DNA from: a virus
Direction: 5' to 3' (one strand)
Length of the DNA: 23,903 bases
IMG/VR virus record: IMGVR_UViG_3300042868_002539
Coordinates: 1 to 23,903 of that record
Shown: one piece after another, positions 4,047-20,817 of the stretch
How the letters are laid out: every line of letters begins with the position of its first letter
How positions within the stretch are numbered: the stretch's first letter is position 1
The notes under the pieces: generated by a model
Told to the model about the DNA's origin: nothing
Seen by the model: only the letters and a program-made list of their open reading frames with translations
Database searches by the model: none
Position numbers and translations under genes: made by a program

Positions 4047-4532
4047 AATACTTCATGCTAACACACATAGCCTAGCTAAGGTGGTATGGTAGCATTTATT
4101 GCTACACATAACAACCTATCCCAATGTATGTCTATAGTGTTGACGGTAGAAGTCCTGTGAAGAAACAACTACCATTACCTGTAGGGAACGGTACATATCA
4201 CATTATGAAATACATACCACCTACCACTAATATCTAGAACATACACCTAGAAAGCCCATAAGGGATGTGTTCATCTATGGCTGTTGTTAGCCCACCCTTT
4301 TAGCAACAGCTTTTAACAAGTACCCACATCAAGTCTAGTCTGGTCAGTGTAAGGTGTACCACTGCCAGTATCCAGAGCAGAGAAACACAGTGGCCCCTGT
4401 GAATCTCTCTCCGAGTCTTTTCTCTTCAGCAGCCGATTGCAAGCTCGTTTCTTTACCTGTAGCCGGAAGGTAGCCTATACTTTGTTTCGTATCGCCTGTA
4501 TACATAAAGCATACATGGTGCAGGTACGGGTA
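4047..4532 (-). other. Long untranslated leader of the leftward operon
   Basis: About 480 bases separate the leftward promoter from the first late start codon and hold no convincing gene on either strand. On the transcribed strand at least one good hairpin is present (4379-4408). The segment also contains short repeated words such as GGTAGCC/TAGCCGGA around 4460-4476. It may carry regulatory RNA structure, an antitermination site or further promoters. I found no tRNA-like T-loop in it. Confidence 0.45.
4379..4408 (-). other. Hairpin in late leader
   Basis: AGAGA at 4379-4383 pairs with TCTCT at 4404-4408, CACAG at 4386-4390 pairs with CTGTG at 4397-4401, with a symmetric AA/AA internal loop and a six-base apical loop. 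The two perfect 5-bp stems separated by a symmetric loop suggest a real RNA fold in the long leader. No U-tract follows, so a simple terminator is unlikely. Confidence 0.4.
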
Positions 4533-4560
4533 GTTTTACACATATCGAAACCAATGTCAA
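4533..4560 (-). promoter_or_regulatory. Sigma70-type promoter for late genes
   Basis: On the - strand TTGACA (4560-4555) is followed after 16 bases by TAAAAC (4538-4533). The -35 is perfect and the -10 matches 4 of 6. It points toward the late operon, whose first start codon is about 485 bases downstream. Assignment is from consensus only. Confidence 0.45.
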
Positions 4561-4637
4561 GCTTTTTCTGTAGGAGATAACAAGATATGTTAGCTATTTA
4601 GCAAATGGTCCATATGGGGTGTCTTCTTAACCTATAG

Positions 4638-4659
4638 CTATCAAGATGTTTCTTGATAG
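4638..4659. repeat. Perfect 9-bp inverted repeat, 4-base loop
   Basis: CTATCAAGA (4638-4646), loop TGTT, TCTTGATAG (4651-4659). It lies just upstream of the leftward promoter. Neither strand shows a T-run after it, so it is more likely a protein-binding palindrome or an RNA stem than a terminator. Confidence 0.4.
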
Positions 4660-4967
4660 ATACTTATAAGTTGCATGAAACTTCAATGAGAATAGTTCTT
4701 GTTTGTTAACATATAAGTGTACAGAAGGTAGCGGTTTGTGCAGCTTTATGTGCATCTTTGTAAGATGGCTTTTGTTCAATATACTCAACAGTTTATGTCG
4801 GATAAGGTGCAGTATATTGCGTGTTCATCTGTCCCTAATTGTTTCTATTGCGGTGTGGGAGCTGCCAAGAATGGAGTTTGGTTAACAGACTCTATTTTCC
4901 TGATTTTTGTACGAGGCCATATACATATAACGTACACCCCCCCTGTGCCCACGCACCCCCTCGCATC

Positions 4968-4998
4968 GCAGCCCTGCAGCCCTGAGCAGCCCTGAGCA
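4968..4998. repeat. Short tandem repeat in a C-rich tract
   Basis: GCAGCCCT at 4968 is followed by two perfect head-to-tail copies of GCAGCCCTGA (4976-4985, 4986-4995) and a partial GCA. The preceding 4935-4960 is a run of C-rich sequence that contrasts with the A/T-rich surroundings. It lies about 230 bases from the DnaA-box cluster. The repeats are iteron-like in layout but too few to call. Confidence 0.45.
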
Positions 4999-5052
4999 AT
5001 GCGTTGCAGATCTTAGGTGAATCAAAGACATAGAATGCAGTTCACTCAAGAA

Positions 5053-5107
5053 GAAGATATCTTCAATGAATTCAATGACTTAGAAGATCTTTGAATACTG
5101 ATTCAAA
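5053..5107. repeat. Run of palindromes
   Basis: Within 55 bases lie GAAGATATCTTC (perfect 12-bp palindrome, 5053-5064), TGAATTCA (5067-5074), AAGATCTT (5084-5091) and the hairpin TTTGAAT-ACTG-ATTCAAA (5090-5107). Such density suggests binding sites for a dimeric regulator or part of an origin. No protein candidate is identified. Confidence 0.4.
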
Positions 5108-5208
5108 ATCGGTTCACCATGTCAAAAATGGTTATAAAAAGTAACGATATTTTGGCATACCCCATCGACAAGAAGGGTCGGTATATCCACCACCCTCTAA
5201 AGAGAATA

Positions 5209-5339
5209 CCCCAATCGGTAAAGTTATCCACAGCAAAACCAAAGTTATCAACAACTACCCCGATCAGTAAAGTTATCAACACCATCAATCAGGGTTATCA
5301 ACAACATCCTAAGCCGAGCCAATAACAAACTGTGGACAA
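5209..5339. promoter_or_regulatory. DnaA-box cluster, candidate replication origin
   Basis: Five nine-base sequences related to the DnaA box occur in 131 bases: TTATCCACA at 5224 (perfect match to the E. coli consensus), TTATCAACA at 5245, 5273 and 5295 (one mismatch each), and TGTGGACAA at 5331-5339 (TTGTCCACA on the other strand). Spacing of the first four starts is 21, 28 and 22 bases. Two of them sit inside a longer imperfect direct repeat (5209-5232 and 5258-5281, 21 of 24 identical). The cluster lies at the divergence point of two operons and next to A/T-rich inverted repeats. It could be an origin, a DnaA-responsive promoter control, or both. Confidence 0.55.
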
Positions 5340-5361
5340 CTCTGTAGTTACTTCCTATATT
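5333..5361 (+). promoter_or_regulatory. Early rightward sigma70 promoter
   Basis: TGGACA (5333-5338), 17-base spacer, TATATT (5356-5361): five of six matches in each hexamer. The -35 overlaps the reverse DnaA-box-like site 5331-5339, and the -10 lies in the left arm of the inverted repeat 5351-5419. Transcription would start near 5368 and read into the 84-aa gene at 5541. Confidence 0.55.
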
Positions 5362-5419
5362 TAAATTCGCATTTTTATGACAACTATGTTGGCATTAAAA
5401 AATGCTTAAATATAGGAAG
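5351..5419. repeat. Long interrupted inverted repeat
   Basis: CTTCCTATATTTAA (5351-5364) pairs perfectly with TTAAATATAGGAAG (5406-5419). Inside, GCATTTTT (5369-5376) pairs perfectly with AAAAATGC (5398-5405), leaving a 4-base bulge and a loop of about 21 bases. In total 22 paired bases, mostly A/T. It could extrude as a cruciform, bind a dimeric protein or unwind easily at an origin. Confidence 0.6.
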
Positions 5420-5442
5420 ATCTGCGTACATACGCCCGATCC

Positions 5443-5529
5443 CATGTCTTTCATTTAACAAAGAAACTATCCTTTTCACTTTAGTGAGAAAAGGAAATAG
5501 TTTCTTTTCTTAGTTAAATGAAAGACATG
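5443..5529. repeat. Long stem-loop just before the first early gene
   Basis: A perfect 17-bp outer stem (5443-5459 with 5513-5529), a perfect 11-bp middle stem (AAAGAAACTAT 5460-5470 with ATAGTTTCTTT 5497-5507) and a 7-bp CCTTTTC/GAAAAGG inner stem, with a 5-base bulge at 5508-5512. It ends 11 bases before the ATG at 5541, leaving the AAGGAAG ribosome site free. In mRNA from the 5333 promoter it would be a very stable 5' structure that could protect the message or act as a processing site. Confidence 0.6.
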
Positions 5530-5540
5530 AAGGAAGCAAA

Positions 5541-5795
5541 ATGACCGATAACGATGCAGTTCAAATTCTCATTGAAATCTCTGTAGTGCTTAGCACTATT
5601 AGCTTAGCCCTTCTTTGGGAAGATCAGATTAAACTGATGCTTTGCAAAGCTTTTGGTTACAAAGTAACTGGTGTCGGATTCAAGAAATCCCACTACACTC
5701 TCAGCAAAGCTGAGGCAATGCAGTGGATGGGTTGTTATGATGAAGCACTGTTATTCAAGGGTAAAACCCTTGTTGGTAGCAGAAAAGCCCTGTGA
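5541..5795 (+). CDS. 84-aa protein with N-terminal membrane segment
   Basis: 84 aa. Residues about 8-25 (ILIEISVVLSTISLALLW) form a likely membrane helix; the rest (KSHYTLSKAEAMQWMGCYDE and a basic end) should lie in the cytoplasm. AAGGAAG precedes the ATG at good distance. It is the first early gene after the control region and sits alone before the next promoter. No family is recognised; early phage membrane peptides often modify host envelope functions or block superinfection, but nothing in the sequence shows that here. Confidence 0.6.
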   Translation: MTDNDAVQILIEISVVLSTISLALLWEDQIKLMLCKAFGYKVTGVGFKKSHYTLSKAEAMQWMGCYDEALLFKGKTLVGSRKAL

Positions 5796-5824
5796 GAGGG
5801 TCGAAGCCCCTCCAATTGACAGGG
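5788..5824 (+). other. Stem-loop overlapping the next promoter
   Basis: CCCTGT (5788-5793) pairs with ACAGGG (5819-5824) and GAGGG (5796-5800) with CCCTC (5808-5812). It spans the stop of the 84-aa gene and includes the -35 of the following promoter. It has no T-run, so if it slows transcription it is a weak terminator at best. Confidence 0.35.
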
Positions 5825-5844
5825 TTATTGGATCTCTTTATAAT
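5816..5844 (+). promoter_or_regulatory. Perfect consensus sigma70 promoter
   Basis: TTGACA (5816-5821), exactly 17 bases, TATAAT (5839-5844). This is the full consensus with optimal spacing. Transcription should start near 5851, which also shows that an upstream in-frame ATG at 5844 cannot start the following gene. It probably gives strong early expression of the GP88-family gene. Confidence 0.85.
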
Positions 5845-5874
5845 TGAAACCTCAACGGCAATGTTGCCACAACT

Positions 5875-5894
5875 TTCCTAAAGGAAACAAAATG
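5875..5894 (+). promoter_or_regulatory. Hairpin ribosome-site cassette, copy 1
   Basis: TTCCTAAAGGAAACAAAATG: TTCC pairs with GGAA around a TAAA loop, and the AAGGA ribosome site lies in the right arm, 7 bases from the ATG of the GP88-family gene at 5892. Near-identical cassettes precede other early genes. Confidence 0.6.
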
Positions 5895-6608
5895 TTCAAG
5901 TCTAAAGCTCTGCTTTCAGTTAGCTCTGATGCCAAAACTATCAAGGGTGAAACCTTAGGTTTCTTAACTGGAATTCTTTACTTAGCTCCGGCTAACACTA
6001 CCAAGTGGAACACTTGTCCTATGGCAAAGAAGGCTCAATGTGATGTGGCTTGCCTCAACACTGCAGGTCGTGGAGCTTTCAGCTCTGTTCAAACGGCTCG
6101 AATCAATAAAACCGAATGGTTTTTTACTGAGCGAAATACTTTCATGCAACAACTTGTTGTTGATATTACAAAGCTCATCAAGAAGGCTAACAAGCAAGGC
6201 TTAAAGCCTTTGGTTAGACTGAATGGGACTAGCGACATTCGTTGGGAAACCGTAGGTTTTACTGATGTTAGTGGCATTGAATATGTAAACATATTTGCTG
6301 CTTTTCCTAACACTCAATTCTATGACTATACCAAGAGAGGAAACCGCACTGAGTTACCAAGTAACTATGACCTGACATTTTCCTATTCCGGTGTTGAAGG
6401 CTTTCAGCCTTATGTCGAAAATGCTTTGTTAAACAACATGAGAATGGCAGTTGTTTTCCGTAAGGAAAAGGATATCCCAATGACATTTATGGGAATCCCT
6501 GTTGTCTCTGGAGACAACTCTGATGTTCGTCACCTTGATGACAAAGTCATTGTCGGACTGTATGCTAAAGGTAAAGCGAAGCTTGATACTACAGGCTTTG
6601 TTGTTTGA
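5892..6608 (+). CDS. GP88-family (gene product 88) protein
   Basis: 238 aa from the ATG at 5892, chosen because of its ribosome cassette and because the longer frame would start inside the -10 box. Landmarks of the phage GP88 domain are visible: GILYLAPANTTKWNTCPMA (27-45), three Cys at 42, 50 and 54, RLNGTSDIRWE (109-119), FPNTQFYDYTKR (138-149) and LPSNYDLTFSYS (155-166). The family is widespread in phages of actinobacteria and proteobacteria, with no established biochemical activity known to me. The clustered Cys residues might bind a metal or cofactor (inference). A consensus promoter directly upstream and a terminator directly downstream suggest a strongly expressed single-gene unit. Confidence 0.8.
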   Translation: MFKSKALLSVSSDAKTIKGETLGFLTGILYLAPANTTKWNTCPMAKKAQCDVACLNTAGRGAFSSVQTARINKTEWFFTERNTFMQQLVVDITKLIKKANKQGLKPLVRLNGTSDIRWETVGFTDVSGIEYVNIFAAFPNTQFYDYTKRGNRTELPSNYDLTFSYSGVEGFQPYVENALLNNMRMAVVFRKEKDIPMTFMGIPVVSGDNSDVRHLDDKVIVGLYAKGKAKLDTTGFVV

Positions 6609-6619
6609 TGACCTTCCGG

Positions 6620-6638
6620 AAAGCCCTAAGGGGCTTTT
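6620..6638 (+). terminator. Probable rho-independent terminator
   Basis: AAAGCCC (6620-6626), loop TAAG, GGGCTTT (6631-6637) followed by one more T, starting 12 bases after the stop of the GP88-family gene. The stem is a perfect 7 bp; the T-run is short, so termination may be partial. Confidence 0.55.
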
Positions 6639-6885
6639 CAGAGTGCCATTGAGTATTCTCTATAGGGTGAAGCCCTGCTGTGAAGCAAAGCTTCAGTCGA
6701 ATGTTCTTTAAAAATTGATACTAGTGTCGGTGAGGGTGCTTGCTATTAGCAAGGTAAGCGTCATCACTATGGACTAGCCTAGTCTGTACAAGGTGAATGT
6801 ACAGGACATGCTTACATATCATGTTGATAATATGTGTGAGAGACATTTTCCATTGTGGCACTGGGGTCGGTGCTAGACAGTGGGT
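6639..6885 (+). other. Intergenic region before second early block
   Basis: With its flanks this is a stretch of about 345 bases without a convincing gene between 6608 and 6954. It holds several small hairpins, for example TGAAGC-AAA-GCTTCA (6681-6695) and TGTAC...GTACA (6785-6802), and a possible promoter at 6803-6831. No tRNA-like sequence was seen. Confidence 0.4.
6803..6831 (+). promoter_or_regulatory. Possible sigma70 promoter
   Basis: AGGACA (6803-6808), 17-base spacer, GATAAT (6826-6831): 4 of 6 and 5 of 6 matches. Position fits a separate start for the block of small genes after the terminator at 6620-6638. Confidence 0.35.
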
Positions 6886-12932: not shown

Positions 12933-13115
12933 ATGTTAGTTGACTCAGTAAAGATAATAGGCACGGTGGATGGGGATGAGGCGGTTGTTATTAACATGAC
13001 CTGCTTATGCCCCTTAGAAACCATTGAAAAGATTTGCTCCACTATTCGTGGGGATCTAAATGATATGGGTAGTGGTATTGATTTTAAAATCTCTTTTAAA
13101 GATATGGATATTTAA
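12933..13115 (+). CDS. 60-aa acidic protein
   Basis: 60 aa: MLVDSVKIIGTVDGDEAVVI, NMTCLCPLETIEKICSTIRG, LNDMGSGIDFKISFKDMDI. Beta strand, helix, beta strand arrangement likely. Its TAA overlaps the start of the ADP-ribosylglycohydrolase gene (TAATG at 13113-13117), so the two are probably translated together. Not recognised. Confidence 0.6.
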   Translation: MLVDSVKIIGTVDGDEAVVINMTCLCPLETIEKICSTIRGDLNDMGSGIDFKISFKDMDI

Positions 13116-13951
13116 TGCATCAAGACAAAGCAATTGGTATGTTCATGGGTCTGTTCATTGGAGATGCACTGGGTGCTCCGTTGGAATTCATCAGACCACA
13201 TGAGATGACACACACATTGACAGAGATGGAGGGTGGTGGTGTACATAACACTGCCGAGGGTGAGTGGACAGACGATGGTGCTATGGCTGTGGCAATTGCC
13301 GATGCATACATAGGCAGCAAACGCTTTGACCCTGAGAACATTGCTATGAACTTCCGTATGTGGAAGAAGACTGGTCACTTCGGTACTCGCAACTATGTCT
13401 TTGACATTGGCAGGACATGTAGTGAAGCCATTGACCGCATCACACCAACACATCCCTATGCAGGTAGCTGTAGCTATAGCTCCAGTGGTAACGGATCTAT
13501 CATGCGAGTAGCACCAGTGGTACTTGCCAATCACAACTGCATGCCTAGTGCTGTGGCACAGAGCATAGCTGTGTCGTTGATGACACATGGTAATGCAGAC
13601 ACTGTGCATTACATTGCAGGGTTTGTGGCTGAGCTTATGTCAGGTAAGGCAGAGGACAACTTCGACTATCTCAAGCACTATCGTGATCCGTATGCTACAG
13701 GAACCATCATGTATACATACAACATGGCATGGGAATGTGTGAGAGAAACTTCTACCTTCGAGAAAGCCTTGGTGAAGGCAGTGAACATGGGCTTTGACGC
13801 TGACACTTTAGGTGCTGTCACTGGTATGTTAGCAGGACGTAAGTATGGCTTGAAAGGTATACCAAATAGATGGCTAGAGAAGCTAGTTAAGAAGGATGAA
13901 CTCATTGATATGGCTGAGAAGCTCTATGCACTGGGAGGTGATGATGAATGA
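13115..13951 (+). CDS. ADP-ribosylglycohydrolase family protein
   Basis: 278 aa, full length for the DraG/ARH family, which removes ADP-ribose from modified proteins or other acceptors using two Mg ions. Visible motifs: GLFIGDALGAPLEF (12-25), WTDDGAM (51-57) with metal ligands T52, D53, D54, GNGSIMRVAP (125-134), and MGFDADTLGAVTG (225-237) with D228, D230 and T231. All expected metal ligands are kept; the residue after TDD is Gly where Thr or Ser is usual. Start is in a TAATG overlap. In a phage it could reverse host ADP-ribosylation used in defence or regulation, or recycle modification; the substrate cannot be told from sequence. Confidence 0.85.
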   Translation: MHQDKAIGMFMGLFIGDALGAPLEFIRPHEMTHTLTEMEGGGVHNTAEGEWTDDGAMAVAIADAYIGSKRFDPENIAMNFRMWKKTGHFGTRNYVFDIGRTCSEAIDRITPTHPYAGSCSYSSSGNGSIMRVAPVVLANHNCMPSAVAQSIAVSLMTHGNADTVHYIAGFVAELMSGKAEDNFDYLKHYRDPYATGTIMYTYNMAWECVRETSTFEKALVKAVNMGFDADTLGAVTGMLAGRKYGLKGIPNRWLEKLVKKDELIDMAEKLYALGGDDE

Positions 13952-19139: not shown

Positions 19140-20817
19140 CACCATATGGTTGTGTGTTACTAAGCACAGCACCACTGGTGAGATAAGACACTGGCGGGAA
19201 GCCGACAGCTTGCAGCAATACTTAGATGGTGAGCAAGTGGTGGGCCACAACATCATTGGCTTTGATGCACCCATACTAAATAAGGTATGGGGTGTTGGCA
19301 TTCCTGACAACACTCTGATGGATACACTGGTGATGTCACGCCTGTACAAGCCTGACATTGAGGTAGTGCTCCCTAAGCAAGGCAAAGCCCCCACTCCCCA
19401 CAGCTTAGAGGCATGGGGCTACCGCTTAGGCAGTCACAAGATTGGCTTCACTAACTTCGATGGTGGGTGGACACAAGAGATGGCTACTTATTGTGAGCAG
19501 GATGTGTTACTGCTTGAGAAACTGTACAGCCACCTATCAACAGTGTTGATTAAGGAAGAGTTTTCTTTACAGAGCATTAAGCTTGAGCATGCGGTGGCAC
19601 TGATCTGCCGAGGCATGGAAGACAATGGCTTCATGCTTGATATGCCTAAGGCTATGGCGTTGCATGCCACCCTCAGTGGGCGTATGTCCGACATTGAAGA
19701 GAGCATGCAGCAGGTGTTCCCTCCCATCGTAGAGCAACGCATCTCTGAGAAGACAGGTAAGCAGCTTAAGGATAAGATTACTATTTTTAATTCTGGTAGT
19801 AGGCAGCAGATTGCTGAACGATTGGCAGGGCTTGGTGTTGTCTTTACGAAGAAGACAGACAAAGGTAATGTCATTGTTGACGAATCGGTGCTTGAGAAGA
19901 TTGACCTACCTGAAGCTAAGCTTGTAGCTGAATACTTAATGATTCAAAAGCGTGTATCTCAGATAAGTAGTTGGCTTGAACTGGTAGCCGATGATGGCAG
20001 GGTGCATGGTAGAGTGACAACCAATGGCGCAGTTACAGGAAGGGCGACACATAGCAGTCCTAATATGGCGCAGATCCCTGCCGTGGGTGGTCCATATGGT
20101 GCTGAGTGCAGAGAAGTATGGACAGTGCCTAAGGGGTACAAGCAGGTGGGTGTAGACCTGTCAGGCATTGAGCTTCGATGCTTAGGCCACTACCTGAATG
20201 ACAAAGAGTGGATGGATGAGTTGCTTAAGGGCGACATCCACTGGTTCAATGCACAGAGTTTTGGCTTAGTTGACAAAGGCACTGTGAAGGATGATAACAA
20301 CCCTGAGCATAAGAAGGCTAGAAATGTTACCAAGACCCTGACATATGGTGTGTTGTATGGGGCAGGGGCAGCTAAAGCTGGAAGCATTGTTGGTGGTAAC
20401 AGTAGCAAAGGCAAGAAACTTATTGATAGTTTTATCAATAACACCCCCGGCCTTTCTGCCTTGAAGAAGAAGATATCTAGGCTGATGGCTAAGGGTCACT
20501 TACCTGCCTTAGATGGTAGGAGAGTGTGGGTTAGATCAGAGCATGCAGCATTAAACACATTGCTGCAAAGTGCAGGTGCTATCATAGCTAAACAATGGCT
20601 TGTTGAATCAACAAAGCTGTTGCAAGAGAAGGGAATAGATGCTAAACTATTAGCGTTTGTTCATGACGAAACACAATGGGAAGTTAGAGAAGATCAGGCA
20701 GAGGAAGCAGCTAGGCTCATAGAGCAAGCAGCAACCAAGGCAGGAGAAGCTCTAGGTTTCCGTTGCCCAGTGGATGCCGAAGGAAAGATTGGCAACAACT
20801 GGCGTGAGTGCCACTGA
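19102..20817 (+). CDS. T7-like family A DNA polymerase
   Basis: 571 aa from the ATG at 19102, placed by AAGGAC just upstream and by the start of the exonuclease motif. 3'-5' exonuclease: DIET (5-8), HNIIGFD (49-55), YCEQD (130-134). Polymerase: motif A VDLSGIELR (351-359, D352), GDIHWFN (377-383), motif B ARNVTKTLTYGVLYG (406-420, K411 and Y415), motif C FVHDE (519-523). All catalytic acidic residues are present. A Tyr at the O-helix position (Y415) is as in T7 polymerase. Shorter than T7 gp5 by over 100 residues, mainly in the thumb and connecting regions. The replicase works with the primase-helicase and SSB genes beside it. Confidence 0.92.
   Translation: MIFLDIETNLKHDTIWLCVTKHSTTGEIRHWREADSLQQYLDGEQVVGHNIIGFDAPILNKVWGVGIPDNTLMDTLVMSRLYKPDIEVVLPKQGKAPTPHSLEAWGYRLGSHKIGFTNFDGGWTQEMATYCEQDVLLLEKLYSHLSTVLIKEEFSLQSIKLEHAVALICRGMEDNGFMLDMPKAMALHATLSGRMSDIEESMQQVFPPIVEQRISEKTGKQLKDKITIFNSGSRQQIAERLAGLGVVFTKKTDKGNVIVDESVLEKIDLPEAKLVAEYLMIQKRVSQISSWLELVADDGRVHGRVTTNGAVTGRATHSSPNMAQIPAVGGPYGAECREVWTVPKGYKQVGVDLSGIELRCLGHYLNDKEWMDELLKGDIHWFNAQSFGLVDKGTVKDDNNPEHKKARNVTKTLTYGVLYGAGAAKAGSIVGGNSSKGKKLIDSFINNTPGLSALKKKISRLMAKGHLPALDGRRVWVRSEHAALNTLLQSAGAIIAKQWLVESTKLLQEKGIDAKLLAFVHDETQWEVREDQAEEAARLIEQAATKAGEALGFRCPVDAEGKIGNNWRECH

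Follow-up and report, generated by a model that had tools for sequence, protein, structure and literature searches.

The DNA analyzed here is a virus record of 23,903 bases, which we refer to as the window. At the point of divergence between its early and late genes lies a non-coding region that carries DnaA boxes with a rigid, conserved geometry, beside which a pair of covarying hairpins is found. Neither a T7-type RNA polymerase nor a DnaA C-terminal domain was found in the full-length relatives of this phage. On sequence evidence, the best reading of the region is a lineage-specific docking array for host DnaA, which may gate the start of replication, early transcription, or both. Phages of this lineage would probably borrow host DnaA to start DNA copying or to switch genes on, whereas T7 employs an RNA polymerase of its own.

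A motif scan of the window detected five DnaA-box-like 9-mers at 5224-5339, one of them a perfect match to the E. coli consensus, exactly as the initial annotation had described them (Table 1). Altogether, the window contains 9 such sites, compared with a mean of 1.4 expected from order-3 Markov sequence of the window, and those outside the array are lone singles (2952, 6822, 15947 and 21574), so that a similar density is not reached elsewhere. Two hundred composition-matched order-3 Markov simulations of the window served as the null model: the best 130-bp cluster held 2 boxes in the simulations and 5 in the window, and none of the 200 simulations produced even three. The boxes had also been described as lying within partly repeated units of 24 bases. 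A repeat is indeed present, as an imperfect 29-nt duplication and as 19-nt copies spaced by 28 and 22; however, a strict 24-mer is not, and consecutive boxes are separated by 21, 28, 22 and 36 bp. When the array was folded, no hairpin was obtained with a stability above that of shuffled sequence.

Table 1. Features of the early/late divergence and its surroundings (window positions, except where another record is named).
Feature	Position	Strand	Remarks
GCAGCCCTG short tandem repeats	4968-4995	+	Variable between relatives
Non-coding block, strongly conserved, upstream of the boxes	5059-5113	+	93-100% identity in close relatives; also in the more distant L107, L116 and L159
Imperfect direct repeat carrying boxes	5207-5284	+	29-nt copies at 5207-5235 and 5256-5284, 86%
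Box B1	5224-5232	+	TTATCCACA, perfect E. coli consensus; optional in relatives
Box B2	5245-5253	+	TTATCAACA, one mismatch; optional in relatives
Box B3 (core triad)	5273-5281	+	TTATCAACA, one mismatch; TTATCCACA in most relatives; column identity 99% in close relatives
Box B4 (core triad)	5295-5303	+	TTATCAACA, one mismatch; 22 bp from B3; column identity 94% in close relatives, spacing fixed
Box B5 (core triad, inverted)	5331-5339	-	TTGTCCACA, one mismatch; 36 bp from B4; column identity 96% in close relatives
Weak sigma-70-like site, TGGACA-17-TATATT	5333-5361	+	-35 hexamer overlaps B5; at this score in some relatives only
Hairpin H1	5351-5419	+	A/T-rich inverted repeat; conserved 5'-side bulge; fold and covariation
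Hairpin H2	5443-5529	+	A/T-rich inverted repeat; conserved 3'-side bulge; stops shortly upstream of the first early ORF
First early ORF, 84 aa	5541-5795	+	No Pfam match
Consensus sigma-70 promoter, TTGACA-17-TATAAT	5816-5844	+	Before GP88; TTGACA-17-TAYAAT in most close relatives
GP88-family gene	5892-6608	+	PF17338; query for relatives
TGTGATCACA sites, CRP-1 (L228)	53719-53802 of the record		
TGTGATCACA sites, CRP-13 (L229)	54778-54862 of the record		
TGTGATCACA sites, CRP-603 (L230)	54104-54222 of the record		

Relatives were collected by a scan with the downstream GP88 gene, which yielded 80 loci. Boxes are found upstream of GP88 in nearly all loci whose GP88 is more than about 79% identical, and the perfect TTATCCACA is commoner in relatives than in the window itself. 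Among the 38 loci that have adjacent hairpins, 37 carry at least one box upstream and 34 carry at least two within 180 bp. The core triad, located at about -78 (+), -56 (+) and -20 (-) from the start of H1, is present in 29 of these 38 loci when one mismatch is allowed, and all but two of the 29 keep exactly 22 and 36 bp between the boxes; the two outer boxes are dispensable. The spacing of B5 is likewise fixed, with about 11 bp between its end and H1. Column identity across B3-B5 averages 96%, compared with 71% in the flanks (Mann-Whitney p = 4e-9, in columns that are not independent of shared ancestry). Retention of the boxes in related phages, with rigid spacing, is thus borne out. More distant loci keep at least one direct and at least one inverted box (L113, L114, L222, L223, L225 and L159) or direct box-like sites only (L115), while L105 has kept the hairpins and has no box. 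Because the geometry of the triad is rigid, DnaA would be expected to form an ordered complex beside H1, whether the array serves replication or transcription.

The hairpins H1 and H2 correspond to the A/T-rich inverted repeats noticed earlier, and their existence is confirmed. Together they fold with z = -11. In 28 distinct sequences, standard pairs make up 98.8% of the H1/H2 pair cells, and in 33 of 61 pairs both partners have changed while pairing is kept, compared with 17.8 in shuffles and 7-11 when the partners were slid. Covariance models give a single match per locus for each hairpin and never find one without the other, the opposite-strand matches being the same inverted repeats. The pair is a separate conserved element, and no Rfam family matched the window at gathering score. 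Wobble G-T pairs outnumber A-C mismatches (15 and 2 cells, respectively), an excess that leans toward an RNA of the + strand. However, a wobble fraction below 1% of the pair cells is low for RNA, and each of the two DNA strands folds well; the view that H1 and H2 are certainly RNA was therefore not adopted. A terminator function was also discarded, as neither hairpin is followed by a run of T.

Short tandem repeats were announced near the boxes, and they are indeed found there. An A/T-rich region beside the boxes is present too, but it is not exceptionally unstable for this genome: parts of it come within the window's 15 least stable 50-mers, but several other places are less stable still. Between 4050 and 5540, about 1.5 kb of the window lack a convincing gene, and positions 4300-4960 are conserved at 75-90% in close relatives; late promoters or a non-coding RNA may be located in this stretch. 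At 4900-4960, a block GGCCATATACATATAACGTACACCCCCCC is followed by GC-rich DNA, an arrangement found at the same place in the marine phages CRP-1, CRP-13 and CRP-603 and in the Manatee Spring phage (L218). Being common to all of them, the block predates the box array.

The window encodes GP88, an integrase and part of ThyX, together with the T7-type replication proteins already recognized in the initial annotation, here confirmed as a T7-like primase-helicase, a family A polymerase, a gp2.5-like SSB and an exonuclease. An ADP-ribosylglycohydrolase-family gene (PF03747) is also found among the early genes, at 13115-13951. T7 primes replication from promoters of the phage RNA polymerase. The primase-helicase, polymerase, SSB and exonuclease of the window phage are related to those of T7; in contrast, the single-subunit RNA polymerase that a T7-type origin employs (PF00940) is absent from the full-length relatives and was detected in the T7-like positive control MW671054, in line with the earlier remark that the window contains no RNA polymerase. 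No O-/P-like initiator or helicase loader and no Rep protein were recognized among the proteins scanned, which covered the small early genes in part.

The long relatives (56-59 kb) have a TerL that is 58-74% identical to that of HMO-2011-type phages, and their early genes follow the order of HMO-2011 (GP88, integrase, primase/helicase, polymerase). A homologous TerL and a shared order of replication genes, the features by which HMO-2011-type phages are recognized, are therefore both found, and a long non-coding early/late divergence is common to the two groups as well. Unlike the polymerases of the marine members, which carry a DnaJ-type CXXCXGXG insert, the window polymerase gave no DnaJ match; for this reason we speak of a cousin and do not file the lineage as an HMO-2011-type member. 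Judging from these comparisons, the lineage is a freshwater-type cousin of HMO-2011-type phages, where "freshwater" derives from its GP88 neighbors, Limnohabitans phage DC31 and a Manatee Spring contig, and not from sample metadata. Window positions 4800-6700 found no match in a DNA search of phage records. In bacterial genomes, neither the primase nor the hairpin pattern led to a prophage, and hence not to a host either.

In four full-length relatives, the cumulative GC-skew curve is lowest 110-260 bp from the closest box. Early and late genes point in opposite directions, and the skew is thus confounded by gene orientation; ORFs that run counter to their half of the genome might have told the two effects apart, but many of them are probably spurious. 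Furthermore, the relative HTVC103P has no boxes at its early/late divergence and shows its minimum likewise there. A skew minimum at the site is therefore real but not specific to DnaA, and we discounted it as support for a DnaA origin. It fits an origin at the divergence across the whole group, and an origin function of the region is plausible.

A more specific proposal is that the region acts as a DnaA-assisted, transcription-coupled origin, similar to ori-lambda, and serves instead of promoters for a phage RNA polymerase like those that prime T7. By analogy with lambda, we give this proposal close to an even chance. Host DnaA bound to the triad of two direct boxes and one inverted box, with extra upstream boxes in some members, would form an ordered complex by the hairpin pair. 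The complex would then aid DNA opening, activate host RNA polymerase at the array, or do both, and the T7-like primase-helicase and polymerase of the phage would take over. We infer each of these steps, namely DnaA binding, replication start at the array and hand-over to the phage replisome. The usual loading of host DnaB by DnaA would not obviously be needed because the phage has a helicase of its own. Counted in favor of a DnaA-assisted origin were a box array above chance, the conserved triad, the location at the divergence, the skew minimum, the lack of a T7-type RNA polymerase and of a DnaA C-terminal domain in full-length relatives, the T7-like replication genes, the known action of DnaA at ori-lambda and the box array of the cultured phage DC31. 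Counted against it were the marine relatives without boxes, the hairpins without a box in L105, the ordinary stability of the adjoining A/T-rich DNA, three non-consensus boxes in the window, a helicase encoded by the phage itself, and a skew that is confounded and has the same minimum in a box-less relative. Recruitment of host DnaA for replication or for the timing of transcription, as suggested at the outset, thus stands as a possibility: the conserved boxes and their rigid spacing speak for it, but the skew is not DnaA-specific and the marine kin lack the array.

The main rival explanation is that the array controls transcription only: DnaA would activate or repress the first early transcript according to the growth and replication state of the host, and replication would start elsewhere. 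DnaA is an established transcription factor, for instance at nrdAB and dnaA (PMC8203912), and this known role favors the explanation. So does the position of the array upstream of the early operon, and in the window and several relatives B5 overlaps a weak sigma-70-like site at its -35 hexamer. Lacking a T7-type RNA polymerase, the phage would presumably have to use the host enzyme. However, the promoter-like site overlaps H1 and is not present in all relatives; RNA made from it would begin within H1, leaving the covarying outer stem out of the transcript; and the clearest conserved early promoter lies about 480 bp downstream and has no association with boxes. Altogether, we consider transcription control alone to be rather unlikely.

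Another protein, from the phage or the host, might have a DnaA-box-like site and bind the array with no involvement of DnaA. Three boxes in the window read TTATCAACA, and the marine cousins show another repeated site, TGTGATCACA, in the corresponding position, both of which agree with such a protein. The explanation is nonetheless improbable, as most relatives have the exact E. coli consensus TTATCCACA, including the inverted copy and the optional boxes.

A lesser rival is a signal for DNA entry or packaging. The injection stop signal of phage T5 is a non-coding stretch with repeats, inverted repeats, palindromes and DnaA boxes (PMC13250531), which are ingredients similar to those found here, and the records of related marine phages begin at the divergence, although a record start may be arbitrary. 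Genome position and phage family differ, however, and two-step entry is a trait of T5. The rest of the gene content examined gives no pointer to two-step entry, and the role of the T5 signal is itself described as poorly understood. We thus regard this explanation as very improbable. Titration, in which the array would soak up host DnaA and delay initiation of the host chromosome, is likewise very improbable: several boxes per genome would presumably multiply with phage copy number, but the two or three boxes of many relatives are few for a sink, and a sink needs neither fixed spacing nor a fixed distance to H1. Finally, a chance cluster of boxes in A/T-rich non-coding DNA, in keeping with the lone boxes at other window positions, can be dismissed as practically negligible, as it is refuted by box conservation over dozens of contigs and by simulations that never matched the array.

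The DnaA-assisted origin that we favor has its closest parallel in lambda, whose origin lies by an early promoter, has DnaA boxes bound by host DnaA and needs host RNA polymerase; ori-lambda is transcriptionally activated more strongly when DnaA is bound nearby (PMC3985674, PMC8203912). Lambda, however, uses its O and P proteins and host DnaB, in contrast with the T7-like primase-helicase and polymerase of the window phage, and box geometry and hairpins differ as well. Host DnaA boxes within a phage-borne origin are also credited to the plasmid origin of P1 in a citation of earlier work (Abeles 1990, cited in PMC5043065). Origins of the P1/iteron type work with iterons and a Rep protein of the phage or plasmid, whereas the repeats of the window are the boxes themselves.

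The box array is absent from the divergence in the marine phages CRP-1, CRP-13, CRP-603 and HMO-2011. DnaA docking would therefore belong to the freshwater lineage and would not be a requirement of the replication system. The first three, which are Roseobacter phages, have instead a palindrome, TGTGATCACA, at their early/late divergence (2, 2 and 4 copies, respectively) and nowhere else in their genomes; HMO-2011 does not have it. Since these cousins carry TGTGATCACA at the equivalent place, the docking factor would differ between lineages, and different factors seem to dock at the divergence in each. A doubtful speculation is that the divergence is a swappable docking bay by a conserved hairpin pair: the freshwater lineage would have adopted host DnaA, so that a replicon with a T7-like replisome came to be started by DnaA, and the Roseobacter-infecting cousins would use another factor via TGTGATCACA. 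The hairpins might represent a class of phage origin or leader element not described before, working as hairpins in the DNA or within early RNA.

Hairpins are also seen in the marine records. Ahead of the first gene, the last 80 bases of the CRP-1 locus (L228) include a long hairpin that is bulged on its 3' side and is H2-like in plan. A near-perfect hairpin at the start of the HMO-2011 record (L220, 1-60) has a loop, ACTTTAGTGAAA, similar to the H2 loop CACTTTAGTGAG; the H2 covariance model did not detect this hairpin.

The underlying ideas are known from lambda, P1 and T5. Their combination is new: a lineage with a T7-like replisome joins DnaA docking sites to covarying hairpins, and its marine cousins have other docking sites at that position. 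To our knowledge, how T7-like replisomes start in phages without an RNA polymerase of their own is unsettled for several abundant aquatic phage groups, and with a conserved array of host-DnaA sites in a single defined location, this can be put to a direct test. If the proposal is true, DnaA docking would couple the replication or early expression of the phage to the replication state of the host.

The general idea of DnaA arrays in phages has a laboratory system in the cultured Limnohabitans phage DC31 (PQ492658), whose GP88 is 65% identical to that of the window. Five perfect TTATCCACA boxes lie within roughly 120 bp of its record (20233-20350; L219, 17840-18160), in a non-coding, repeat-rich and origin-like stretch of about 930 bases, with GTTCAGTCAG-type direct repeats and A/T-rich repeats beside them. 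Five boxes in a non-coding array are thus common to both phages, but DC31 has a 76-kb genome, another gene set and another box layout, and its array adjoins direct and A/T-rich repeats rather than H1 and H2. In addition, other viral contigs found by box pattern have 7-12 DnaA-box-like sites per 200 bases (L190, 9317-9517; L164, 112-312; L166, 1648-1848; L182; L183), and DnaA arrays therefore occur in other phages too.
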